Notes under the pieces: generated by a model
Told to the model about the DNA's origin: nothing
Databases searched by the model: none
Seen by the model: the letters and a program-made list of their open reading frames with translations, nothing else
In this document: in pieces, positions 13,246 through 25,977 of the stretch
Position numbering within the stretch: position 1 is the stretch's first letter
How the letters are laid out: each line of letters begins with the position of its first letter
Made by a program: the position numbers and the translations under genes
NCBI RefSeq assembly: GCF_000312005.1
Contig: NZ_HE978588.1
Coordinates: 2,459,259 to 2,495,300 of the forward strand
Reading direction: 5' to 3'
Source of the DNA: Cellulomonas massiliensis JC225
Lineage (GTDB): Bacteria > Actinomycetota > Actinomycetes > Actinomycetales > Cellulomonadaceae
Length of the DNA stretch: 36,042 bases

Positions 13246-14355
13246 TCAGCGGACCGTCACGGCGGTGGCGCGCCGCACCACCTCGTCGTCGGTCGCGCCC
13301 TGGGCGCGCCAGGACTGCTGCTGGACGGCGCCCGTGCCGCGCAGGAGGACGTCGCCCACGAGCCGGTCGACGAGCTCGTCGTCCCCGAGCCGCTCGAGCG
13401 TGGGGCGCGCGTGCTCGACGAGCGCGCCCACGACCTCCGCCGCAGGCGCGGGCTTGCCGGTGAGCGGGTGGACGAGCGTGCCGGTGACGCCGTCCTTGCC
13501 GGCGCGCCACGACGCGGCCCGCAGCAGCTCGGTGCGCGGCTGGTCGACGGCGGGGGAGTCCGCCAGGCCCCGCACGAGCGCCGCCTGCAGCACCGCGTCG
13601 GCGGCGTCGAGGCACACGTCCGCGACCCGCACCTCCACGGTCGGGTAGCGGGCGGAGAGCCGGGCGTCGAAGTAGATCATCCCGTCGTCGAGGATCGTGC
13701 CCGTCGCGAGCAGCTCCTCCACCACGCGGTGGTACTCCTCGGGCGTCCCGAACGGCGCCGTCGGGCCCGCGGTGGGCCAGCGGCCCCACACCTGCGAGCG
13801 GTAGGACGCGTAGCTCGTCGACCGTCCCTGCCACGACGGGCTGTTCGCCGACAGCGCCATGAGCACCGGCGCCCACGGCCGCAGCGTGTCGACGATCCGG
13901 ACGCCGTCGCGCTCGTCGGTGATGCTGACGTGCACGTGGCAGCCGCACGTGAGCTGCTCGCCGGCGGTGTAGCCGAAGTGCGCGCGGATCTCGTGCGCGC
14001 GCCGGTCGGGCAGCGTGGTCGGCCGCACCTTGTGCGGGCTGGTGCCGAGGGCGGCGATCCGGGCCCCGGCCCGCTGCGCGGCCTCGTCGGCCTGGCGACG
14101 GCGTCCCCGCAGGTCCTCCAGGAGGTCGGCGAGGCTCTCGTGGGGGTGCGTCGAGATCTCGATCTGCTCCTGCTTGAACTCCTTCTCGACGTCACCCCCC
14201 GGGCGGTCGTCCTCGGCCGTGGCGCCGCGTGCGGCGCGGCTCAGGTGGGCGTGGCGCAGCACGGCCGGCGACACCGAGGCGGTCCCGCCCTCCGGCGTGA
14301 CCAGCAGGTACTCCTCCTCGACGCCGACGGTCCGGACGCTCTGGGTGGTCTGCAC
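13246..14355 (-). CDS. Carboxylate-amine ligase, YbdK / glutamate-cysteine ligase 2 family
   Basis: The 369-residue protein belongs to the GCS2 family of ATP-dependent ligases that can join glutamate to cysteine. Characteristic segments are VGVEEEYLLVT (10-20), EFKQEQIEISTHPH (59-72) and GCHVHVSI (138-145), with a C-terminal stretch around WRAGKDGVTGTLVHP. Actinobacteria use mycothiol rather than glutathione, so the true substrate pair is uncertain; the YbdK branch is known for weak glutamate-cysteine ligase activity. The start is GTG at 14355 without a ribosome binding site; a -10-like CAGACT lies 6 bases before it. It is convergent with the flavoprotein (13-base gap) and downstream of the ABC exporter genes on the same strand. 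Confidence 0.9.
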   Translation of the reverse strand: MQTTQSVRTVGVEEEYLLVTPEGGTASVSPAVLRHAHLSRAARGATAEDDRPGGDVEKEFKQEQIEISTHPHESLADLLEDLRGRRRQADEAAQRAGARIAALGTSPHKVRPTTLPDRRAHEIRAHFGYTAGEQLTCGCHVHVSITDERDGVRIVDTLRPWAPVLMALSANSPSWQGRSTSYASYRSQVWGRWPTAGPTAPFGTPEEYHRVVEELLATGTILDDGMIYFDARLSARYPTVEVRVADVCLDAADAVLQAALVRGLADSPAVDQPRTELLRAASWRAGKDGVTGTLVHPLTGKPAPAAEVVGALVEHARPTLERLGDDELVDRLVGDVLLRGTGAVQQQSWRAQGATDDEVVRRATAVTVR

Positions 14356-14424: not shown

Positions 14425-15285
14425 TCAGCCGGCGGCGCGGTCGAGCGCCGTCATCGTCTCCTCGAGGGTCGCGCGCACGTGCTGGGCGCGCGCGGCCACG
14501 CCCGCCGCGGCGAGCACGCGCTCGACCCGGCCGAGGTCCGCGTCCACGGCCCGCACGTCGCGGCCGGCGAGCGTCACCACGACCCCGGCCGCGTCCAGGG
14601 CCGTGAACGCGTCCTGCCAGCGCTCCGCGCGCACGGCGACGGCCGTCGTGGCACCGACGATGTCGTCCTCGCTGCCGGCCGCGACCGCACGCCCGCGCGA
14701 CATCAGCACGAGCCGGTCGCACTGCTCGGCCTCCTGCAGGTAGTGCGTCGTGACGAGCACGCCGACGCCGGCCTCGGCCCGGTCGCGCACCGTGTCCCAC
14801 AGCCGTGCGCGCGCGAGCGGGTCGACGCCCGACGTCGGCTCGTCCAGCACCAGCAGCGCCGGCTCGTGGGCGAGGGCGGCGGCGAACGAGAGCCGGCGCT
14901 GGCGGCCCAGCCCGATGGAGCCGACCAGGGCGTCGGCGACCTCCGCGAGGTCGTCCGGCACGGCGGCCGGGGTGCCGAACGCGTCGGCGACGAAGGCGAG
15001 GTTCTCGCGGACCGTGAGGTCGTCGTACAGGCCCAGCCCCTGCGGGACGTACCCCAGGCGGCGCCGGCTCGCGCGCGAGGGCGGCGCACCGAACAGGTGC
15101 AGCGTGCCCGACGAGGGCGGCAGCAGGCCGAGCAGCATCCGGATCAGCGTGGTCTTGCCCGCGCCGTTCGCACCCAGCAGGCCGACGACCTCGCCCGGCG
15201 CCACGGTCAGCGAGACGTCGTGCACCGCCGTGAACGACCCGAACCGGCGGGACACCTCGCGCACGTCGACGAGCGGCTCAGCCAC
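14425..15285 (-). CDS. ABC-2 exporter ATPase with intact Q- and H-loops but no LSGGQ signature
   Basis: This 286-residue protein is the second ATPase of the exporter. It has Walker A (GANGAGKTT, 38-46), Q-loop (YVPQG, Q82), Walker B (LLVLDEP, 144-150) and H-loop (TTHYLQEAE, H181). The ABC signature is missing: where LSGGQ should precede RRLSFAAALAHEP the protein reads IGLGRQ (124-129), and the distance from LTVRENL to this point is about 10 residues shorter than in the neighbouring ATPase. The reading was checked on the DNA at 14881-14960 and shows no frameshift. A C-terminal regulatory extension follows (about 200-286). The start is GTG at 15285, overlapping the upstream ATPase gene by 8 bases. 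It probably pairs with that ATPase as a heterodimer. Confidence 0.93.
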   Translation of the reverse strand: MAEPLVDVREVSRRFGSFTAVHDVSLTVAPGEVVGLLGANGAGKTTLIRMLLGLLPPSSGTLHLFGAPPSRASRRRLGYVPQGLGLYDDLTVRENLAFVADAFGTPAAVPDDLAEVADALVGSIGLGRQRRLSFAAALAHEPALLVLDEPTSGVDPLARARLWDTVRDRAEAGVGVLVTTHYLQEAEQCDRLVLMSRGRAVAAGSEDDIVGATTAVAVRAERWQDAFTALDAAGVVVTLAGRDVRAVDADLGRVERVLAAAGVAARAQHVRATLEETMTALDRAAG

Positions 15286-16093
15286 GGAGCGCCTCCTGAG
15301 CGAGCGCCGCCGCGATGACGGCGTCCTCCAGGTCCGGCGGGTCCAGCGGCTCGCCGCGCGCCGGCGTGCGCGGCGACCACTCGTGCAGCTCCCGCCCTCG
15401 CCGCCAGGCCCGCGCGCGGTCGGTGGCCTCGGCCGTCCGCACCACGACGCCGGGCGCGTCCCGGACGACCGCGTCGGGCGGCCCGGACAGCAGGGCCCGC
15501 CCGCCGTCGAGCACGAGCACGTGCGCGCACCGCTCCGCCTCGTCGAGGTACGTCGTCGCCATCGCGACCGCGGCGCCGCGGGCCGCCGCCCCCGAGACGA
15601 GCCGCCACAGGTCGACCCGGCTCACGGGGTCGACGCCCGTGCTCGGCTCGTCGAGCACCAGCAGCGGCGGCTCGTGCAGCATCGCGAGGCAGAACGCGAG
15701 CTTCTGACGCATGCCGCCGGACAGCGCGGACGCGAGCCGCCCGCGCACGTCCTGCAGGCCCGCCGCGCCCAGGAGGTCCCGCCGCCGGCGCGCCAGGGCC
15801 TCTCCGCGGACGCCGTAGGCCGCGGCGACGAAGTCGACGTTCTCGTCGACCGTGAGCTCCCGCCACACGCCCGACGCCGTCGGCATGAAGCCGCTCCGGT
15901 CCGGGGGCGGCGCGTCGACGTGCCCGTCCGCAGGAGCCACCGCGCCCGCGAGCGCACGCAGCAGCGTCGTCTTGCCCGCGCCGTCACCCCCGACGACGGC
16001 GACGACCTGGCCGGCCGGCACCGCGAGCGTCACCCCGTCGAGCGCGACCCGCTCGCCGTGCCGGACGGTGAGGTCCCGCACTCCCCACGTCAT
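15278..16093 (-). CDS. ABC-2 exporter ATPase with LSGG signature but altered Q- and H-loops
   Basis: This 271-residue ATPase carries Walker A (GGDGAGKTT, 35-43), the signature ALSGGMRQ (123-130) and Walker B (LLVLDEP, 144-150). The Q-loop Gln is replaced (FMPTASG, T72) and the H-loop His is replaced (ATTYLDEAE, T181); both were confirmed on the DNA. It therefore lacks exactly the elements its partner keeps, and keeps the one its partner lacks. In E. coli YbhF and RbbA two such ATPase domains are fused in one chain; here they are separate genes overlapping by 8 bases. The start ATG at 16093 overlaps the permease stop as ATGA. Confidence 0.93.
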   Translation of the reverse strand: MTWGVRDLTVRHGERVALDGVTLAVPAGQVVAVVGGDGAGKTTLLRALAGAVAPADGHVDAPPPDRSGFMPTASGVWRELTVDENVDFVAAAYGVRGEALARRRRDLLGAAGLQDVRGRLASALSGGMRQKLAFCLAMLHEPPLLVLDEPSTGVDPVSRVDLWRLVSGAAARGAAVAMATTYLDEAERCAHVLVLDGGRALLSGPPDAVVRDAPGVVVRTAEATDRARAWRRGRELHEWSPRTPARGEPLDPPDLEDAVIAAALAQEALRG

Positions 16094-17148
16094 GCCCGCA
16101 CCTGCGCGTGGGCCGGCGCGTGCGGCGCCCGGGCGGCCCGGCGCCCGGGCGCGAGGTCCCGGCGGAACCGCAGCACCGCCGCGGTGAACACGACGGTCGC
16201 GAGCACCGCCAGCACGACGTACGCCGGCCACAGCGAGTCCAGGCCGGCGCCCCGCAGCATCACGCCCTGCGAGAGCTGCACGAACCAGGTGAGGGGCAGG
16301 CAGTAGCCGATCGCGGCGATCCAGGCGGGCATCGCCTGCAGCGGGAAGATGAAGCCGGACAGCAGGATCTGGGGCAGCAGCGTCATGAGCGCCACCTGGA
16401 TCGCCTGGCCCTGCGTCTGCGACGCGGTCGAGATGAGCACGCCGATCCCGAGCACGACGAAGAGGAAGACGGCCCCGCCCAGGACGAGCAGCAGCGGGTT
16501 CCCCTCGAACGGCACGTGGAAGATCCAGACGCCGAGCAGCGTCACCAGCGCCATGTCGACCGAGGCGAGGATGAAGTAGGGCGCGATCTTCCCCACGATC
16601 ACGTCGGCGGGCCGCAGCGGCATGACGGCGAGCTGCTCGAGCGTGCCGGTCTGCCGCTCCCGGACGAGCCCGATGCTGGTGATGATCGTCCCGACGAACG
16701 TGAGGATGAGCCCGATCAGCGCGGGCACCATGACCCACGACGTCTCCAGGTCGGGGTTGAACAGGATCTCGACGTGCACGGCGTCGCCCGCGCGGCCGAA
16801 CGCGGCGCTGGCGGTCTGCGCGACGAACAGGCTGGAGCCGTCGACGTAGGCGGTCGGCGGCGTCGTCGCGGTGTCGACCACGACGTCGGCCTCGTTGTCG
16901 CGCACCATCGCGCGGGCATCGGCGGCCGTCGCGGACGGGTCGGTCGCGACGACGTCGAAGAGGTCCGGCGCCAACGCGGCCACCTGGTCCGCGCCGGGGC
17001 CGACGGCCTTCGTCGTGATGCTGTCGATCGTGAAGTTCGCGGCGTAGCCGAAGACCACGAGCAGGACGACCGGGAGGGCGACGAGCATCGCCACCGTCCG
17101 GCGGTCACGGCGCAGCTCGCGGAACTCCTTGAGGATCATCGCGCGCAT
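16090..17148 (-). CDS. ABC-2 type exporter permease
   Basis: A 352-residue membrane protein of the ABC2_membrane_3 type (YhhJ/YbhR/YbhS-like). It has a short cytoplasmic start (ILKEFRELRRDRRT), membrane segment 1 (about 20-40), a large extracytoplasmic domain (about 45-165), then five hydrophobic segments between about 170 and 330, with ERQTGTLEQLAVMPLRPADVI in the first cytoplasmic loop as in this family. It ends with a basic Ala- and His-rich tail. AGAAGG lies 8 bases before the ATG at 17148; an in-frame ATG 3 codons later is possible. The same operon encodes both ATPases; the divergent TetR gene suggests induction by the exported compound. Confidence 0.93.
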   Translation of the reverse strand: MRAMILKEFRELRRDRRTVAMLVALPVVLLVVFGYAANFTIDSITTKAVGPGADQVAALAPDLFDVVATDPSATAADARAMVRDNEADVVVDTATTPPTAYVDGSSLFVAQTASAAFGRAGDAVHVEILFNPDLETSWVMVPALIGLILTFVGTIITSIGLVRERQTGTLEQLAVMPLRPADVIVGKIAPYFILASVDMALVTLLGVWIFHVPFEGNPLLLVLGGAVFLFVVLGIGVLISTASQTQGQAIQVALMTLLPQILLSGFIFPLQAMPAWIAAIGYCLPLTWFVQLSQGVMLRGAGLDSLWPAYVVLAVLATVVFTAAVLRFRRDLAPGRRAARAPHAPAHAQVRA

Positions 17149-17182
17149 CGCGGAGCCTTCTCCCTAGGATGGACGAGAAAAG

Positions 17183-17198
17183 TTCGTCACGTGAGGAA
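17183..17198. promoter_or_regulatory. Probable TetR operator between the exporter operon and tetR
   Basis: TTCGTCACGTGAGGAA is a 16-base palindrome with one mismatched pair around a TCACGTGA core, in the 70-base gap between the permease start (17148) and the regulator start (17219). Extended to 24 bases, 9 of 12 pairs match. An outer perfect inverted repeat, TCCCTAG (17161-17167) and CTAGGGA (17201-17207), flanks it, and each arm is part of the ribosome binding region of one gene. Binding here would cover the promoters of both divergent units, as is usual for TetR autoregulation. Confidence 0.6.
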
Positions 17199-17218
17199 AT
17201 CTAGGGAGGTGCGGCACG

Positions 17219-17833
17219 GTGGTCAACCCCGCGGCCAACCCCGCGCGCGGCCGGCGGCCCGGCCCCAGCACGACGCGCGAGCAGATCCTCGCCGCGGCCC
17301 GCACCCAGTTCGCCGAGCACGGCTTCGAGCGCACGTCGATGCGCGCGGTCGCCCGCGCGGCCGGCGTCGACGCCAAGCTCGTCTCGCACTGGTTCGGCAC
17401 CAAGGACGAGCTGTTCGCCGCGGCGGTCGAGATCCCGTTCGACCCGGCGGACGTCGTCGCGCTGCTGGACGCCGTGCCGCGCGAGCGGATCGGCGAGCGG
17501 CTCGCCGGGTTCTTCGTCGGCGTCCTCACCGACCCGCTCGCGGGCGGCCGGGCGGCGGCGATCGTCCGCTCGGCGGCGACGTCCCCGGGCGCCGCCACCG
17601 TGCTGCGCGAGACGATGGTGCAGCGCCTGCTGGTGCCCGTCGCCCAGCACATCGGGGCGGACGAGCCCGAGCTGCGCGCCGAGCTCGTCGCGAGCCAGGT
17701 CGTCGGCCTCGTCGTCCTGCGCCGCGTCGTCGGCGTCGAGCCGTTGACGTCCCTGCCCGCCGCCCGGCTCGCGGCCGTCCTCGCGCCCACCGTCCAGCGC
17801 TACCTCACCGGCCCGCTGCCCCCGGCGCCCTGA
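17219..17833 (+). CDS. TetR-family transcriptional regulator
   Basis: A 204-residue regulator. The TetR_N helix-turn-helix spans about residues 19-65 (TREQILAAARTQFAEHGFERT, then SMRAVARAAGVDAKLVSHWFGTKDELFAAAV), followed by an all-helical ligand-binding and dimerisation domain with a C-terminal helix pattern common in actinobacterial TetRs. The start is GTG at 17219 with AGGGAGGT 8 bases upstream. It is divergent from the ABC-2 exporter operon, with a palindrome in the gap, so it most likely represses that operon and itself. The ligand is unknown. Confidence 0.93.
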   Translation: MVNPAANPARGRRPGPSTTREQILAAARTQFAEHGFERTSMRAVARAAGVDAKLVSHWFGTKDELFAAAVEIPFDPADVVALLDAVPRERIGERLAGFFVGVLTDPLAGGRAAAIVRSAATSPGAATVLRETMVQRLLVPVAQHIGADEPELRAELVASQVVGLVVLRRVVGVEPLTSLPAARLAAVLAPTVQRYLTGPLPPAP

Positions 17834-18313: not shown

Positions 18314-18997
18314 CTACACCTCGAAGACGTAGCCGAGCCCCGGCTGCGTCACGAGGTGGCGCGGGTGGGACGGGTCGTCCTCGAGCTTGCGGCGCAGCTG
18401 CGCGGAGTACACGCGCAGGTAGTTCGTCTCGTCGGAGTAGGCCTGGCCCCAGACCTCCTGCAGGAGCTGGCGCCGGGGGACGAGCCGGCCGCGGTGGCGC
18501 ACGAGCACCTCGAGCATCGACCACTCCGTCGGCGTGAGCCGCACCTCCACCCCGTCGCGCAGCACGCGCGCCCGGGCGAGGTCGATCACCAGCGAGCCGG
18601 CGGTCACGACCGACTCCTCGCCGTCGGCGGGGGCGGCGGCCCGGCGCACGGCGGCGCGCAGGCGCGCGAGCAGCTCGTTCATGGCGAAGGGCTTGGTGAC
18701 GTAGTCGTCCGCGCCCGCGTCGAGCGCCTCGACCTTGTCCTCGCCGTGCTGGCGCGCGGACAGCACGACGACGGGGACGCGCGTCCACGCGCGCAGCGCG
18801 GCGATGACGTCCAGCCCGCTCATGTCGGGCAGGCCGAGGTCGAGCAGCACCACGTCGGGCACCCGCTCCGCGGCGGCGGCGATCGCGCTCGCGCCGTCCG
18901 CCGCCGTGGTCACGTCCCACCCCGACGCCCGCAGGGTGATCGCAAGGGCGTGCGCCAGTCCGGGCTCGTCGTCCACGACGAGGACGCGGTTGCTCAT
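18314..18997 (-). CDS. kdpE: Response regulator KdpE (OmpR/PhoB family)
   Basis: KdpE is phosphorylated by KdpD and activates the kdp promoter. The 227-residue protein has a receiver domain (1-120) with acidic pocket D10/E11, phospho-acceptor D53 (LLDLGLPD) and the conserved Lys in YVTKPF, then an OmpR-type winged helix (about 128-227) with LTPTEWSMLEVLVRHRGR and ending VTQPGLGYVFEV. Its ATG at 18997 overlaps the kdpD stop as ATGA. The tandem repeat boxes at 26237-26286 have the geometry expected of sites for this family. Confidence 0.95.
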   Translation of the reverse strand: MSNRVLVVDDEPGLAHALAITLRASGWDVTTAADGASAIAAAAERVPDVVLLDLGLPDMSGLDVIAALRAWTRVPVVVLSARQHGEDKVEALDAGADDYVTKPFAMNELLARLRAAVRRAAAPADGEESVVTAGSLVIDLARARVLRDGVEVRLTPTEWSMLEVLVRHRGRLVPRRQLLQEVWGQAYSDETNYLRVYSAQLRRKLEDDPSHPRHLVTQPGLGYVFEV

Positions 18998-21534
18998 GGG
19001 GCGGTCTCCCGGGTCGCGGGGGCGTCGGCCAGCGGCACGACGACCACCATGGTGAGGCCTCCACCGGGCGTGTCCTCGGGGCGGACCTCGGCGCCCACGG
19101 CGTCGGCGAGGCCCTGCGCCACCGCCAGCCCGAGCCCCAGCCCGCTGCCGGCCGCGTCGCCGAGCCGCTGGAACGGCTCGAACAGGCGCGGCTTGAGGTC
19201 GTCCGGCACGCCGGGACCGCGGTCCACCACCTGCAGCACCATCGACGGGCCCGCGGACGCCGCCCCTGCCGGCGCCGTCTGCGCGCCCACCGTGACGGCG
19301 GTCCCGGCAGGGGCGTGCCGGACCGCGTTGTCGACGAGGTTCGCGACCACCCGCTCCAGCAGGCCGGGGTCCGTCAGCACCAGCGGGAGCGTCTCGGGCA
19401 GCTCCAGCCGGACCTGCGGGTGCCCCTCGGCGGCGACCGGCACCACCTCCTCGAGGCTCACGGGGCGCAGCCGCGGCCGCAGGCTGCCGGTCTGCAGGCG
19501 TGAGAGGTCGAGCAGGTCGTCGATGAGGTGCTCGAGGCGTCCGGTGGCTGCGGCGAGCGTCGCGACGAGGGCGTCGCGGTCCGCCTCGCTCAGCCGGAGC
19601 TCGTCGTGGGTGAGGGCGTCGACCGCCGCCCGGATGGTCGCGAGCGGCGTCCGCAGGTCGTGCGAGACGGCCGCCAGCAGCGCGGTGCGCGTGCCCTCGG
19701 TCTGCTCGAGGACGCGTGCGTGGTCGGCGCGCTCGCGCAGGCGCTCCTGCTCCAGCAGGACGCCGACCTGCGAGCCGAACGCCTCGAGCACCCGGCGGTC
19801 GGAGGCGGGCAGGGCGCGGCCGCTCAGCGCGAGCAGGCGGGTCTCGTCGACCTCGACGACGGTCGACGCGGCCGCCGGGTCGTCGGCGGCCGCGCCGTCG
19901 CGGGCGAGCGTCACCCACCTGCCGCCGTCCCGCGCGAGCAGCGCGACGCCGTCCAGGGTGAACGTCTCGCGCAGCCGCGCGACGAGCGCCTCCGCGGTCC
20001 CCTCGCCGGACAGCACCGAGCGGGACACCGCCGCCAGCGCGCTCGCCTCCGCGCGGGCCCGGAACGCGTCGGAGGTCCGCCGCGCCGCCAGGTCGACCAC
20101 CGAGGCGACCCCCGCGGCGACCAGCACGAACACGGCCAGCGCGAGCGCGTTCTCCGGCTCGGCGACCGAGAGCATGCCCGTCGGCTCGGTGAAGAACCAG
20201 TTGAGGAGCAGGAACCCGAGGACGGCGCTGACGAGGGCCGGCCACAGCCCGCCGACGAGCGCGACGAGGACCGTGAACGCGAGGAACAGCAGCAGGTCGC
20301 TCGGCAGCTCGAGCACGTCCTCGAGCGCCAGGAGCAGGAGGGTGAGCAGGGGCGTGCCGAGGAGGGCGGTGAGCCAGCCCGCGACGCGGCGGCCACGGGA
20401 CAGGGGGGACGTGCGGGCCGCCCGTCGCCCGGTGCGGGCCTGCTCGTGCGTGACGAGGTGCACGTCGATCGCGCCGGCCAGCCGGGCGATCTCGGTGCCG
20501 TGCCCCTCGGTGAGCGCCTCGCGCAGCCGGCTCCGGCGGGAGACCCCGACGACGATCATCGTCGCGTTGACGCCGCGCGCGAAGTCCACCACGGCGCTCG
20601 GGACGTCCTCGCCGACGACGGTGTGCAGGGTGCCCCCGAGCTGCTCGACGAGGCGGCGCTGGGCGGCGAGCGTCGCCGGGGGCACGCGGGGCAGGCCGTC
20701 GGTGGCGAGCACGTGCACCGCGAGCAGGTCCGAGCCGGCGGCGCGCTGCGCGATCCGGGCCCCGCGCCGCAGCAGCGTGTCGGTCTCGGGGCCGCCGGTC
20801 ACCGCGACGACGACCCGCTCGCGCGCCGGCCAGGGCGTCTCGATCGCGTGCTGGCGGCGGTAGTCGGTGAGGTCGTCGTCGACGAGGTCGGCGAGCCACA
20901 GCAGCGCCAGCTCCCGCAGGGCGGTGAGGTTGCCGAGCCGGAAGTACGACGAGAGCGCCGCGTCCACCTGCTCCGCGCGGTAGACGTTCCCGTGCGCGAG
21001 GCGCCGACGCAGCGCCTGCGGCGGGAGGTCGACGAGCTGGATCTGGTCGGCCGCCCGCACGACGTGGTCGGGGACGGTCTCGCGCTGGCGCACCCCCGTG
21101 ATCCGCTCGACGTCGTCGTTGAGCGACTCCAGGTGCTGGACGTTGACGGTGGTCAGCACGTCGACGCCCGCCTCCAGGAGCTCCTGCACGTCCTGCCACC
21201 GTCGGGCGTGGCGCGAGCCGGGCGCGTTGGTGTGCGCCAGCTCGTCGACGAGCACGACCTGCGGGGCGCGGACGAGGACCGCCGCGACGTCCAGCTCGCC
21301 GAGCGCGAGGCCGCGGTGCGTGAGCTCCAGCCGGTCGAGCACCTCGAGCCCGTCGAGCTGTGCGGCGGTCGCCGTCCGGCCGTGGGTCTCGACCAGACCG
21401 ACGACGACGTCCGTGCCGCGGGCTCGCCGGCGGTGCAGCTCGTCGAGCGCGGCGTAGGTCTTGCCCACCCCGGGCGCCGCGCCCAGGTAGACCGTCAGCC
21501 GGCCGCGGCGCACGCCGCTCGGCTCGCTCGTCAC
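18994..21534 (-). CDS. kdpD: Sensor histidine kinase KdpD
   Basis: KdpD senses K+ limitation and phosphorylates KdpE. The 846 residues run: cytoplasmic KdpD domain (about 10-220) with Walker A GAAPGVGKT (18-26) and Walker B VVLVDELAHTNAPGSRHA (93-110); a universal-stress-like domain (about 238-365, VVVAVTGGPETD); four closely spaced membrane segments (about 385-485); a GAF-like linker (about 490-600); HisKA with phospho-acceptor H625 (AAVSHDLRTPLA); and an ATPase domain with NLVDNAVRHAP and SGLGLGLAVAQG. The start is GTG at 21534, overlapping the kdpC stop as GTGA. Slightly shorter than E. coli KdpD (894) but complete in domains. Confidence 0.96.
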   Translation of the reverse strand: MTSEPSGVRRGRLTVYLGAAPGVGKTYAALDELHRRRARGTDVVVGLVETHGRTATAAQLDGLEVLDRLELTHRGLALGELDVAAVLVRAPQVVLVDELAHTNAPGSRHARRWQDVQELLEAGVDVLTTVNVQHLESLNDDVERITGVRQRETVPDHVVRAADQIQLVDLPPQALRRRLAHGNVYRAEQVDAALSSYFRLGNLTALRELALLWLADLVDDDLTDYRRQHAIETPWPARERVVVAVTGGPETDTLLRRGARIAQRAAGSDLLAVHVLATDGLPRVPPATLAAQRRLVEQLGGTLHTVVGEDVPSAVVDFARGVNATMIVVGVSRRSRLREALTEGHGTEIARLAGAIDVHLVTHEQARTGRRAARTSPLSRGRRVAGWLTALLGTPLLTLLLLALEDVLELPSDLLLFLAFTVLVALVGGLWPALVSAVLGFLLLNWFFTEPTGMLSVAEPENALALAVFVLVAAGVASVVDLAARRTSDAFRARAEASALAAVSRSVLSGEGTAEALVARLRETFTLDGVALLARDGGRWVTLARDGAAADDPAAASTVVEVDETRLLALSGRALPASDRRVLEAFGSQVGVLLEQERLRERADHARVLEQTEGTRTALLAAVSHDLRTPLATIRAAVDALTHDELRLSEADRDALVATLAAATGRLEHLIDDLLDLSRLQTGSLRPRLRPVSLEEVVPVAAEGHPQVRLELPETLPLVLTDPGLLERVVANLVDNAVRHAPAGTAVTVGAQTAPAGAASAGPSMVLQVVDRGPGVPDDLKPRLFEPFQRLGDAAGSGLGLGLAVAQGLADAVGAEVRPEDTPGGGLTMVVVVPLADAPATRETAP

Positions 21535-22166
21535 GAGGCCATTGTCCGCAGGGCGAGGTTCAGGCGCAGCACGTTCACCCGCGGCTCGCCGAGCACGCCG
21601 AGGTCGCGCCCGAGCGTCGACCGCCGCACGAGCGCTCGGACCTCCCGCTCCGGCAGCCCGCGCTCGCGCGCGACCCGGGGCACCTGCTGCAGCGCCCACG
21701 CGGGGGAGATGTCGGGGTCCAGGCCGGAGCCGGACGCCGTGACGGCGTCGGGGGGCACGAGACCGGGGTCGACACCGTCCTGCTCCGCGGCCTGCGCCCG
21801 GCGCTCCTGCACCTGCCGCACGAGGTCGGGGTTCTGCGGCCCGAGGTTGGAGCCTCCCGACGCGCGGGTGTCGTACCCCTCGCCCGCCGCCGACGGCCGG
21901 GGGTGGAACCACTGCGGGCCCGTGAACGCCTGGCCCACGGGGGCCGAGCCCACCGCGAGCGCGCGGTCCGTCGTGCGTGCGCCGTCCGCGATGAGGAGGG
22001 AGCCGTGCGCCTGCCACGGCAGCAGCACCTGGGCGGCGGCGGTGACCGCGAGCGGGTACGCCAGGCCGAGGACGAGGGTGAGCACGGCGAGGACGCGCAG
22101 GCCGGCCCACGTCTGGCGCAGGAACGGGACGGCGGTGGCGGGGCGCAGGGGGGCGGGTGCGGTCAC
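21531..22166 (-). CDS. kdpC: K+-transporting ATPase subunit KdpC
   Basis: KdpC is the single-span subunit that assists ATP binding by KdpB. The 211-residue protein has one N-terminal membrane segment (about 20-45, [21 protein letters not shown]), then the conserved [31 protein letters not shown], the [18 protein letters not shown] motif and the final [11 protein letters not shown]. The start is GTG at 22166, overlapping the kdpB stop as GTGA. Confidence 0.96.
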
Positions 22167-24295
22167 GAGAGGACTCCCAGGGCGGTGACGAGCAGGTCGA
22201 CGAGCTTGATGCCGACGAACGGCGCGACGAGGCCGCCGACGCCGTACAGCAGGAGGTTGCGGCGCAGGAGGGCCGAGGCGGAGGCCGGGCGGTAGCGCAC
22301 GCCCCGCAGGGCGAGCGGCAGGAGCGCGACGATGACGAGCGCGTTGAAGACGACGGCCGAGAGCACCGCCGACTCGGGGCTGCCGAGGTGCATCACGTCG
22401 AGGACGCGCAGCGGCGGGAACGCCACCGCGAACATGGCGGGGAGGATCGCGAAGTACTTGGCCACGTCGTTCGCGATGGAGAACGTCGTCAGGGCACCGC
22501 GCGTGATGAGCAGCTGCTTGCCGATCTCGACGACCTCGATGAGCTTGGTCGGGTCGGAGTCGAGGTCGACCATGTTCCCGGCCTCCTTCGCGGCGCTCGT
22601 GCCCGAGCTCATCGCGACGCCGACGTCGGCCTGGGCGAGCGCGGGCGCGTCGTTGGTGCCGTCGCCGCACATCGCGACGAGGCGACCGCCGGCCTGCTCG
22701 CGGCGGATGAGGGCGAGCTTGTCCTCCGGGGTCGCCTCCGCGAGCACCTCGTCGACACCGGCCTCGCGGCCGATGGCCTCCGCGGTGACCCGGTTGTCGC
22801 CCGTCACCATCACGGTGCGGATGCCCATGGCCCGCAGCGCGTCGAAGCGGTCGCGCAGGCCGTCCTTGACGACGTCCTTGAGGTGCACGACGCCGAGGAC
22901 CCGGGCGGGCCGGTCGCCGACCTGCTCCGCGACCACCAGCGGGGTGCCGCCGGTCGCCGCGATCGCGTCGACGGTCGCCGCGACGTCGTCGCCCGCGTGC
23001 CCGCCGGTGGACCGGACCCAGTGCGTCACGGCGGCCGCCGCGCCCTTGCGGACGCGCCGCGGGTCGACACCGTCGAGGTCGACGCCGCTCATCCGGGTGC
23101 GGGCCGAGAACGGCACCAGGGTCGACCCGACGAGCTCGCCCTCCGGACGCTCGCGCAGGCCGAACCGCTCCTTGACCAGCACGAGGACCGACCGGCCCTC
23201 CGGCGTCTCGTCGGCCATCGAGGACAGCTGCGCGGCGTCCGCGAGCCGCTCCACCGGGACCCCGGCGGCGGCGACGAGCTCGGAGGCCCGCCGGTTGCCG
23301 AAGGTGATGGTGCCGGTCTTGTCGAGCAGCAGGACGTCGACGTCTCCGGCCGCCTCGACCGCCCGGCCGCTCGTCGCGAGCACGTTGCGCCGCACCAGCC
23401 GGTCCATGCCGGCGATGCCGATGGCCGACAACAGCGCGCCGATCGTCGTGGGGATGAGGCACACGAGCAGGGCGACGAGGACGACGAGCCGCTGCGGCGC
23501 GCCCGAGTAGACCGCGAACGGCTGCAGCGTCACCACCGCCAGCAGGAAGACGATCGTCAGCGACGTGAGCAGCACGTCGAGCGCGACCTCGTTGGGGGTG
23601 CGCTGCCGCTGCGAGCCCTCGACCAGGGCGATCATCCGGTCGACGAAGGTGCGTCCCGGCTCGGCGGTGATCCGGACGACGACCTCGTCGGACAGCACGA
23701 CCGTGCCGCCCGTGACGGCGCAGCGGTCGCCGCCCGACTCGCGGATGACAGGGGCGGACTCGCCGGTGATCGCCGACTCGTCCACGCTGGCGACCCCTTC
23801 GACGACGTCGCCGTCGCCGGGGATCGTCCGGCCGGCCCGGACGACGACGACGTCACCCGGCCGCAACGTCGAGCTGGGCACCTCCTGCGTCGGGAGCGCC
23901 GCGAGGCCCGTGGTGTGCTCGAGCGTGTCCGGCGGCGCGACGACGCGCAGGGCGGTCGTCTCGCGCTGCGTCGCGCGCAGGCTCGCGGCCTGCGCCTTGC
24001 CGCGGCCCTCCGCGACCGCCTCCGCGAGCGTCGCGCACAGCACCGTCAGCCAGAGCCACGCCGTGATCGACCAGGCGAACGCGTCGGGCTCGATCGCGGC
24101 GAGCACGGTCGTGAAGGCCGCGCCGACCTCGACGACGAGCAGCACCGGGGTGCGCCGCAGGCGCCGGGGGTCGAGGCCTCGCAGCGCGTCGGGCAGGGCG
24201 GCCGCCAGCTGGCGGACGGACAGCACCGTGGGCGCGCCGGCCACCGGGCGGGCGGTCACGGGCGACGACGGGCGGACGGGGGTGCTCGTGCTCAT
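22163..24295 (-). CDS. kdpB: K+-transporting P-type ATPase, catalytic subunit KdpB
   Basis: KdpB hydrolyses ATP to drive high-affinity K+ uptake through KdpA. The 710-residue protein contains the actuator motif TGES (177-180), whose Ser corresponds to the inhibitory phospho-site known in E. coli KdpB; membrane motif [10 protein letters not shown]; phosphorylation site DKTGTIT with D325; nucleotide domain KGAAAAV; and the hinge [18 protein letters not shown]. All catalytic residues look intact. The N-terminal 40 residues are somewhat longer than usual. Its ATG at 24295 overlaps the kdpA stop as ATGA. Confidence 0.97.
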
Positions 24296-25977
24296 GAGAG
24301 GGACTCCACGACGGGGCCGAGGGAGAGGGCGGGGACGAAGGTCAGGCCGACGACGACGAGCGTGACGGCGACGAGCAGCCCGACGAACAGGGGGGAGTGG
24401 GTCGGCAGCGTCCCGGCGCCGGCCGGCACGCGGCGGGCGCTCGCGAGCCGGCCGGCGAGCGCGAGGACGAGGGCGATCGGCACGAACCGACCGACGAGCA
24501 TCGCGAGGCCGAGCAGGGTGTCGTAGTACGGCGTGCCGCTCGACAGCCCCGCGAAGGCCGAGCCGTTGTTGTTGCCCGCCGACGCGAACGCGTAGAGCAC
24601 CTCGGACAGCCCGTGGGGCCCGTGCTCCTGCAGGCCGGCGAGACCCGGGCCGCTGACGACGGACAGCGCCGTGCCCACGAGCACCACGGCCGGCATCGTC
24701 AGGACGACGAGCGCGACGAGCGTGATCTCCTCACGCCCCAGCTTCTTGCCCAGGTACTCGGGCGTGCGGCCCACCATGAGCCCGGCGAGGAACACCGCCA
24801 CGACGGCGAGGACGACCAGGCCGTAGACGCCGGACCCGACGCCGCCGGGGGCGACCTCGCCCAGCAGCATCCCGACCATGGCGACGCCGCCGCCCGGCGC
24901 CGTCAGCGAGTCGTGCATCGCGTTCACCGCACCGGTGGACGTCATGGTCGTCGACGCCGCGAACAGGGCCGACGCCGCCTCGCCGAACCGCACCTCCTTG
25001 CCCTCCATCGCCGCGCCGGCGGCGCGCCCGACCGCGCCGGCGCCCGAGAGCTCGGCCCAGGTGAGCAGCGCGACGGACGCGAGCCACAGCGTCGACATCG
25101 TCGCGAGGATCGCCCAGCCCTGGCGGCGGTCGCCCACCATGACGGCGAACGTGCGCGGCAGGGCGAACGGCAGCAGGAGCATCGCGACGACCTGCAGCGC
25201 GTTCGTCCAGGGCGTCGGGTTCTCCAGCGGGTGGGCGGAGTTGGCGTTGAAGAAGCCGCCGCCGTTCGTGCCGAGCTGCTTGATCGCCTCCTGCGACGCG
25301 ACCGGCCCGCCCAGCACCTCCTGCGTGCCCCCCGCCAGGGTCGTCACCGCCTCGTGCGGCAGCAGGTTCTGGACCACGCCACCCGCGACGAGGACGAGCG
25401 CGAGGACGGCGGCCAGCGGCAGCAGCACCCGCACGGTCGTGCGCACGAGGTCGGCCCAGAAGTTGCCGACGCGGGCGTCCGTCCCGCTGCGCGCGAAACC
25501 GCGGGCGAGCGCCGCCATGACGGCGACCCCCACCGCTGCGGAGACGAAGTTCTGCACCGTCAGCCCGGCCATCTGGAGCAGGTGCCCGGCCGCCTGCTCG
25601 CCGGAGTACCACTGCCAGTTGGTGTTCGTCGCGAACGAGACGGCCGTGTTCCAGGCCCCCGCGGGGTCGAACGGCGCCGTGCCGAGGCTGAGGGGGAGCG
25701 CGGACTGCAGGCGGGCGAGCGCGTACAGCACCACGACCGACGCCAGCGAGAAGCCCAGCAGCGAGAGCAGGTAGGTGCTCCAGCGCTGCTCGGCGTCCGG
25801 GTCGACGCGCATGAGGCGGTAGCCGGCGCGCTCGACGGCGAGGTGGCGCGGTGACGTGAGGGTGCGTGCGACGTGGTCGCCGAGCGGACGGTGCGCCGCG
25901 GCCAGGACGAGGACCACGAGCAGGACCTGCCCGGCGGCGGTGAGGACGACGACGGCGGAGGGGGCGGACGCGGTCAC
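24292..25977 (-). CDS. kdpA: K+-transporting ATPase subunit KdpA
   Basis: KdpA is the K+-selective channel-like subunit. The 561-residue membrane protein has about ten hydrophobic segments and the four selectivity-filter regions expected of the superfamily: [38 protein letters not shown] and [13 protein letters not shown]. The start is GTG at 25977, 3 bases after the kdpF stop, and the product begins with a hydrophobic helix as usual. Confidence 0.97.

Follow-up and report, generated by a model that had tools for sequence, protein, structure and literature searches.

Among exporters, eukaryotic and type IV members provide the best-known degenerate ATP sites, and ABCG proteins belong to the ABC-2 (type V) class. 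In an ABC dimer, each ATP site consists of the Walker A and B motifs, Q-loop and H-loop of one subunit and the signature of its partner, and the available part of the source likewise gives eukaryotic and type IV exporters as the best-known cases of degeneracy (PMC7756269). Loss of the Glu is the usual hallmark of a degenerate site in the accessible text of another paper (PMC7544095). ABCG5/G8, a two-gene heterodimer, and Pdr5, a fused protein, each have one canonical and one degenerate site according to the available portions of two papers (PMC7756269, PMC8421411), and ABCG proteins are assigned to the ABC-2/type V class in those of a third (PMC11466899).

In E. coli, YbhF is a single fused protein with two ATPase halves, which works with two permeases, YbhS and YbhR, and an HlyD-type partner, YbhG. 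RbbA carries both ATPases and a membrane part in one 911-residue protein, and has a second permease (YhhJ) and a membrane-fusion partner (YhiI). The cecR gene adjoins ybhG, and we take CecR to be a TetR family protein. YbhFSR was reported to export tetracyclines and ethidium in the available part of one paper (PMC7190983). The motifs of YbhF are described as conserved in the accessible parts of that and another paper (PMC7190983, PMC9951867), so that work on YbhF has been framed without asymmetry. The part available of a review on tripartite pumps mentions YbhFSR and names no degenerate site there. No degenerate site was named for YbhF or RbbA in the literature searched, which covered few subscription papers. 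Among the matches listed, solved structures included no YbhF or RbbA member, and the best sequence matches were ABCA transporters.

We analysed a stretch of 36,042 nucleotides from Cellulomonas massiliensis JC225 (the window), which contains the following features.

14425..15285, minus strand: NBD2, an ABC ATPase with a GTG start and intact Walker A and B
15278..15285, minus strand: 8-base overlap of the NBD1 end and the NBD2 GTG start, read from the sequence
15278..16093, minus strand: NBD1, an ABC ATPase with intact Walker A, Walker B and LSGG
16090..16093, minus strand: 4-base ATGA overlap of the permease stop and the NBD1 start, read from the sequence
16090..17148, minus strand: half-size ABC-2 permease of 352 aa with about six hydrophobic segments (ABC2_membrane_3, 112 bits)
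17149..17218, no strand: 70-base intergenic gap between the divergent permease and TetR genes, from the gene coordinates
17219..17833, plus strand: divergent TetR-family regulator (TetR_N 56 bits, TetR_C_16 105 bits)

The permease, NBD1 and NBD2 genes form one operon in that order on the minus strand, with the divergent TetR gene adjoining it, and the permease is the only one in the operon. Thus, the two adjacent ATPases of the original prediction are there, and their order is reversed; the ATPase that it put second (NBD1) is made first. The overlaps of 4 and 8 bases suggest that translation of the three genes is coupled. The TetR protein is probably the repressor of the operon, and both promoters, with the TetR operator, presumably lie in the gap. 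dN/dS ranged from 0.27 to 0.51 in 12 comparisons (three genes against four relatives), which indicates that the genes are not decaying; all three are under purifying selection. Directly downstream of NBD2 lies a gene of the glutamate-cysteine ligase family 2 (13246-14352, minus strand). The window also holds a potassium pump cluster on the minus strand, with the KdpD sensor kinase at 18997-21600, KdpA at 24295-25977 and, in what would be the place of KdpB, a P-type ATPase at 22166-24295.

Both ATPases match ABC_tran of Pfam (NBD2 96 bits, NBD1 83 bits). Their scores against the DrrA subfamily model TIGR01188 were 181 and 131 bits, below its cut-off of 312.45 bits. In the NCBIfam RbbA model NF033858, the first NBD is matched by NBD1 (174 bits), the second by NBD2 (209 bits) and the membrane part by the permease (145 bits). 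The locus thus resembles RbbA in all three parts; however, each score is far below the cut-off of 1050 bits for this equivalog, and three genes with the permease first stand where RbbA has NBD, NBD and membrane part in one chain.

Translation and residue look-up bore out the motifs assigned by the original prediction. NBD1 has Walker A GGDGAGKT, Thr72 in the Q-loop, LSGG at 124-127, LDEP and Thr181 in the H-loop, and NBD2 has Walker A GANGAGKT, Gln82 in the Q-loop, IGLG at 124-127, LDEP and His181 in the H-loop. A shortening of about 10 residues before the NBD2 signature, also predicted, is real; the distance from Q-loop to signature is 42 residues in NBD2, and NBD1 and each half of E. coli YbhF all have 52. 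Both ATPases retain the catalytic Glu and the Lys of Walker A. To call one of the two ATP sites fully degenerate, as had been done, is therefore too strong, because the Walker A Lys is still present in NBD1, as is Asp-Glu in Walker B.

We compared these states with 40 other ATPases of the same genome, taken from the best 43 matches beyond the pair among the 99 NBD2 matches listed (pair included); one match covering residues 1-183 only and two with an internal stop were left out. The H-loop His is kept in 34 of the 40 (Gln in 5, Ala in 1), the Q-loop Gln in 30 (Glu in 6, Asp in 3, Gly in 1), and the second signature residue is Ser in 38, leaving 2 without it. A single loss of His or Gln is not rare among the ATPases of this genome. 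Leu at the third signature position (SLG) is ordinary there (6/40), so it was not counted as a loss. The changes that stand out more are Ser to Gly in NBD2, and Gln and His to Thr and Thr in NBD1. Four ATPases of this genome that we labelled DrrA-like (L145, L148, L153 and L157) have Gln at the H-loop and YSGG signatures.

The sequences of the two E. coli proteins (K-12 record) showed this asymmetry too, with the two kinds of half in the order NBD1, NBD2. In YbhF and RbbA, the N half has LSGG and Ser or Ala at the H-loop, and the C half has LPLG with Gln and His. Thus, the suggestion that such motif losses were new for this kind of transporter fails in kind. Besides this asymmetry and the order of NBD1 and NBD2, the window shares with YbhF-YbhS-YbhR an ABC-2 permease and an adjoining regulator gene (TetR in the window, the only locus considered for this trait; cecR in E. 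coli). The window differs from YbhF in having two ATPase genes and one permease, and also in two motif states, as YbhF keeps the Q-loop Gln of NBD1 and its NBD2 is not shortened. Transporters of the same membrane class with one working site, namely ABCG5/G8 and Pdr5, also speak against novelty and resemble the window in having one canonical and one degenerate composite site, as far as the available parts of the papers go (PMC7756269, PMC8421411). The elements lost are different. According to the same portions, the degenerate site of Pdr5 loses the Walker B Glu and the signature, and that of ABCG5/G8 loses the signature and has Arg for the Walker A Lys (PMC7756269, PMC8421411), whereas the window keeps Lys and Glu and loses the H-loop His, the Q-loop Gln and the signature Ser. 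Asymmetric double ATPases with one degenerate site are also described for the RbsA/RbsC and NupO type in the accessible part of PMC11466899; these are importers with fused NBDs and a second Walker A without Lys, unlike the window. In that part, RbsC stands twice per complex (RbsAC2B) among predicted complexes (PMC11466899).

Does the asymmetry extend beyond these proteins? We collected 109 pairs from many phyla, consisting of the window, the two E. coli proteins, close loci, phylum loci and relatives from a scan of genome contigs. The phylum search with an NBD1 profile found 47 places in 40 of 396 genomes at 1e-62, and 23 of the 47 were analysed, 21 of them on 20 stretches of sequence; these were all 18 above a gap in score (287.6 versus 251.6 bits) and 5 below it. 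The contig scan, one of whose two patterns was LSGGM[RK][QR]KL, contributed the best 80 of at least 586 relatives. L038 and L062, which are copies of one locus, and L048, L049, L060, L064, L074, L112 and L125, which are without both domains, were dropped. To assign a domain to NBD1 or NBD2, we used the Asp or Asn of Walker A, independently of the motifs counted. We define YbhF-type NBD1/NBD2 ABC-2 exporters here as a grouping of our own, and the window fits it: its NBD1 has GxDGxGK, LSGGM and no H-loop His, and its NBD2, nearby on the same strand, has GxNGxGK, Gln and His.

In the 109 pairs, NBD1 has LSGG in 109, Asp-Glu in 109, the Q-loop Gln in 69 and the H-loop His in none (Ala 36, Pro 32, Thr 26, Ser 15). 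The LSGG count is partly selected, as the scan pattern and the NBD1 profiles contain LSGG, and relatives with an NBD1 His could be missed, as the searches rank by likeness to NBD1s without His. NBD2 has Gln, His and Asp-Glu in all 109 and LSGG in 15; the other signatures are LPLG (21), LPGG (18), IGLG (11), LAGG (9), LSLG (7) and 19 rarer types (28 rows). All pairs have a complete site formed by NBD2 and the NBD1 LSGG, and the site made of NBD1 and the NBD2 signature has always lost His, often the signature Ser and sometimes Gln. Replacement of the catalytic Glu, the usual hallmark, was absent from the degenerate site in all 109 pairs. The losses had been predicted to fall on one composite site and spare the other, and this pattern recurs in 109/109 pairs, as would be expected of a head-to-tail heterodimer with one working site; in the window itself they likewise appear confined to one site, with the other complete. 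Separate frames (77/109) are commoner in this sample than a single NBD1-NBD2 polypeptide (32/109), so the two-gene form, which had also been thought new, is not.

A plasmid set was found with the whole of YbhF, and LSGG in its NBD1 was therefore not selected by a pattern. The set comprised 10 loci chosen for variety from 60 listed among 229 records, from Pseudomonadota, Bacteroidota, Bacillota, Cyanobacteriota and Gemmatimonadota. NBD1 has LSGG in 10, Gln in 9 and His in 0, and NBD2 has Gln in 10, His in 10 (in Octadecabacter, whose frame is broken, on a separate fragment) and LSGG in 1 (Peptoclostridium). Taken over these samples, the motif asymmetry is a feature of a wider family and not peculiar to this strain.

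Several layouts in the collection deserve mention. About 1.3-1.7 kb, space for one more gene, separates the NBD1 and NBD2 matches in 13 loci (L070, L072, L075, L086, L090, L091, L094, L095, L096, L113, L124, L130 and L133), and both permeases lie between the two ATPase genes in L059, L093 and L105. One ATPase domain is split over two frames in each of L185 and L187 (plasmids of Peptoclostridium and Octadecabacter) and L116. L116 was counted within the 77 separate-frame rows though its break falls inside NBD1; its NBD1 H-loop reads Ser, maybe a frame artefact, and Ala in the second piece, neither being His.

The order of the losses was also considered. With LSGG as the yardstick, all 40 pairs that lack the NBD1 Gln are non-LSGG in NBD2, and Gln is retained wherever NBD2 has LSGG (15 pairs; Fisher p 0.0009, with phylogeny ignored). 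With Ser as the yardstick, 8 of the 40 Gln-less pairs keep the NBD2 signature Ser. The Gln state changes only 4 times on the tree described below, giving 1 independent pair on starred branches and 4 in all (sign test p 1). Because of these two points, loss of the NBD1 Gln only after loss of the NBD2 signature is no more than suggestive. For fusion against signature state, there were only 4 starred pairs and 6 in all.

On a tree of the 109 pairs, built by a quick method from an alignment stripped of the trait columns, the window sits in a clade of 32 rows with an SH-aLRT support of 100. The NBD1 Q-loop Gln is lost in all 32 (Ala 21, Thr 7, Glu 2, Val 1, Ser 1). The distance from Q-loop to signature in NBD2 is 40-47 residues in 30 of the 32 versus 50-53 in the other 77 pairs; the exceptions are L046 (57 residues) and L065 of Bifidobacterium aquikefiri (58 residues), the latter a natural NBD1-NBD2 fusion. 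Separate frames are found in 21 rows of the clade and fusions in 11, and the NBD2 signature Ser is kept in 7 (LSLG).

The clade is also distinct in its permease. One permease lies directly upstream in 30 of the 32 rows, window included, and the contigs of the remaining 2 end 18 and 58 bases upstream; the two permease genes of the YbhS/YbhR type were thus found neither in the window nor in the other rows of these 30, with flanks searched mostly over 3-5 kb on each side (0.7 kb on the downstream side for L055). Outside the clade, at least two permeases were found in 61 of 77 pairs, 7 of the 77 end within 1.1 kb downstream, and 9 have fewer than two (L057, L058, L080, L098, L100, L106, L120, L127 and L134). 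We made an unrooted FastTree of 150 permease rows, from 58 two-permease loci, 30 clade singles and 4 other singles. The 30 clade singles form one group (support 100), and all 34 singles lie in one set (support 95). Another group (support 96) contains 57 of the 58 first-position permeases, and the second-position permeases and one first-position row are on the remaining side; being unrooted, this tree gives no ranking of which two of the three lineages are closer. This grouping argues that the single permease is a lineage of its own and not the orphan half of a YbhS/YbhR pair. L127 and L134, from Chloroflexi MAGs, have one upstream permease, and no other was found there; their NBD1 keeps Gln and their NBD2 spacing is normal. 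Their permeases group with the single-permease lineage and their ATPases do not.

Because one composite site is always spared, a random scatter of losses is unlikely, and this points to a likely heterodimer of NBD1 and NBD2. We are fairly confident of the reading as a whole, namely an ABC-2 exporter driven by a YbhF-type split motor with one hydrolysing site. It would be a type V (ABC-2) exporter of actinobacteria, with E. coli YbhFSR and RbbA/YhhJ as relatives. Its motor would be an NBD1/NBD2 heterodimer, in which separate genes encode what are the two halves of a double ATPase in YbhF. ATP would be hydrolysed at a single site, with Walker A/B, Gln and His from NBD2 and LSGG from NBD1. The other site would place Walker A/B of NBD1 opposite the IGLG of NBD2, without Ser, Gln and His. 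This site keeps Lys and Glu, so we expect that ATP binds there and that the site has not gone dead; it probably stays closed with a structural or regulatory role, as is thought for Pdr5. The motor would power a permease dimer, in the simplest reading a homodimer, that exports a lipophilic or drug-like compound, and export would be switched on upon release of the TetR repressor. This substrate class and the TetR control are a natural guess by analogy, drawn from the drug export by YbhFSR and the adjoining TetR gene. Several points count against the reading as a whole: the Glu at the NBD1 Q-loop of two clade rows (2/32), a state that matches 6 of the 40 control ATPases; the lack of the H-loop His in 6 of those 40; the pairs that keep the NBD2 Ser (30/109 in all, 7/32 in the clade); and the leaning of the searches towards NBD1s with LSGG and without His.

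An alternative is a heterodimer in which both sites hydrolyse ATP, that of NBD1 slowly. The Walker A Lys and catalytic Glu, intact on both sides, with Asp-Glu kept in every NBD1, are in keeping with this, as are the control ATPases whose Q-loop has Glu or Asp or whose H-loop has Gln, and the NBD2s that have retained LSGG or Ser. However, the window changes three elements of one site together (Thr, Thr and Gly), and Gln, His and Glu of NBD2 are invariant in the sample. We therefore regard activity at both sites as unlikely. Two separate homodimeric ATPases that serve different permeases and are neighbours by chance would be a further alternative. Each homodimer would contain two defective sites, and a single chain carries both NBD1 and NBD2 in 32 of the 109 rows, and in 11 of the 32 in the clade. 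The presence of two ATPase genes with only one permease might suggest such an arrangement, but no second close permease was found in the genome, where the next match is 31 bits, and the NBD1 and NBD2 genes overlap by 8 bases. Separate homodimers are thus very improbable.

According to the original prediction, a strain-specific defect would be suggested by close relatives whose first protein has LSGGQ and whose second has Gln/His. A search of 58 genomes with NBD2 found a match at 1e-50 in 15, window's own included, of which 11 are among the 35 other genomes of the genus, while 3 come from the rest of the order. We compared 15 loci besides that of the window (one genome has two), 14 of them distinct. 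One permease, NBD1 and NBD2 follow in that order in 15/15, and NBD1 and NBD2 are fused in 8 of the 14 distinct loci. In these 14, NBD1 has LSGG in all, Gln in none and His in none, and NBD2 has Gln and His in all and LSGG in none, one keeping Ser (LSLG); the state named by the prediction occurs in 0/14. These loci were found via NBD2 alone, so the LSGG of their NBD1 was not forced by the search, and the pattern appears to exceed chance. L037 and L038 (G023:C4:49500-58500 and 125600-134600) are the operon present twice, in opposite orientation, on one contig of a genome of the genus; with 8930 identical bases within 9 kb, this is a recent inverted duplication or an assembly artefact. Strain-specific decay, in which two ordinary ATPases have been mutated in the present genome, has the motif changes themselves and nothing else in its favour, and we rejected it as scarcely credible because the same asymmetry is found in 14/14 distinct close loci and 109/109 pairs, dN/dS is well below 1 and the frames are open. 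A ribosome-associated ATPase, as claimed for RbbA, instead of a transporter is suggested by the name of the best family model, but it has almost no probability in view of its 145-209 bits against a cut-off of 1050, the ABC-2 permease in the operon, the adjoining TetR gene and the retraction, in the available part of the record, of a paper that dealt with a ribosome-dependent ATPase together with an E. coli membrane protein (PMC12169533).

What is new here, in our view, is the clade that combines one permease, a Gln-less NBD1 and a shortened NBD2. Its traits predict an asymmetric motor on a homodimeric permease. We propose, only tentatively, that the exporter of this clade has a two-gene motor whose asymmetry is permanent, with one working ATP site, on a symmetric homodimeric permease, and that its degenerate site, through loss of Gln along with the shortening of NBD2, has decayed further than in the other sampled branches. 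Because the single permeases are separate from both two-permease lineages, asymmetry of the motor may predate, and have arisen independently of, asymmetry of the membrane domains. If the permease is homodimeric, this system would separate the two kinds of asymmetry. The family gives many bacterial examples of degenerate sites, both split and fused, whose subunits can be mixed for assay, and a series of NBD2 signatures from LSGG through LPGG/LAGG to LPLG and IGLG. As the same imbalance is present in related bacterial pumps, the asymmetry seems to be an ancient part of the design, as opposed to damage at this one locus.
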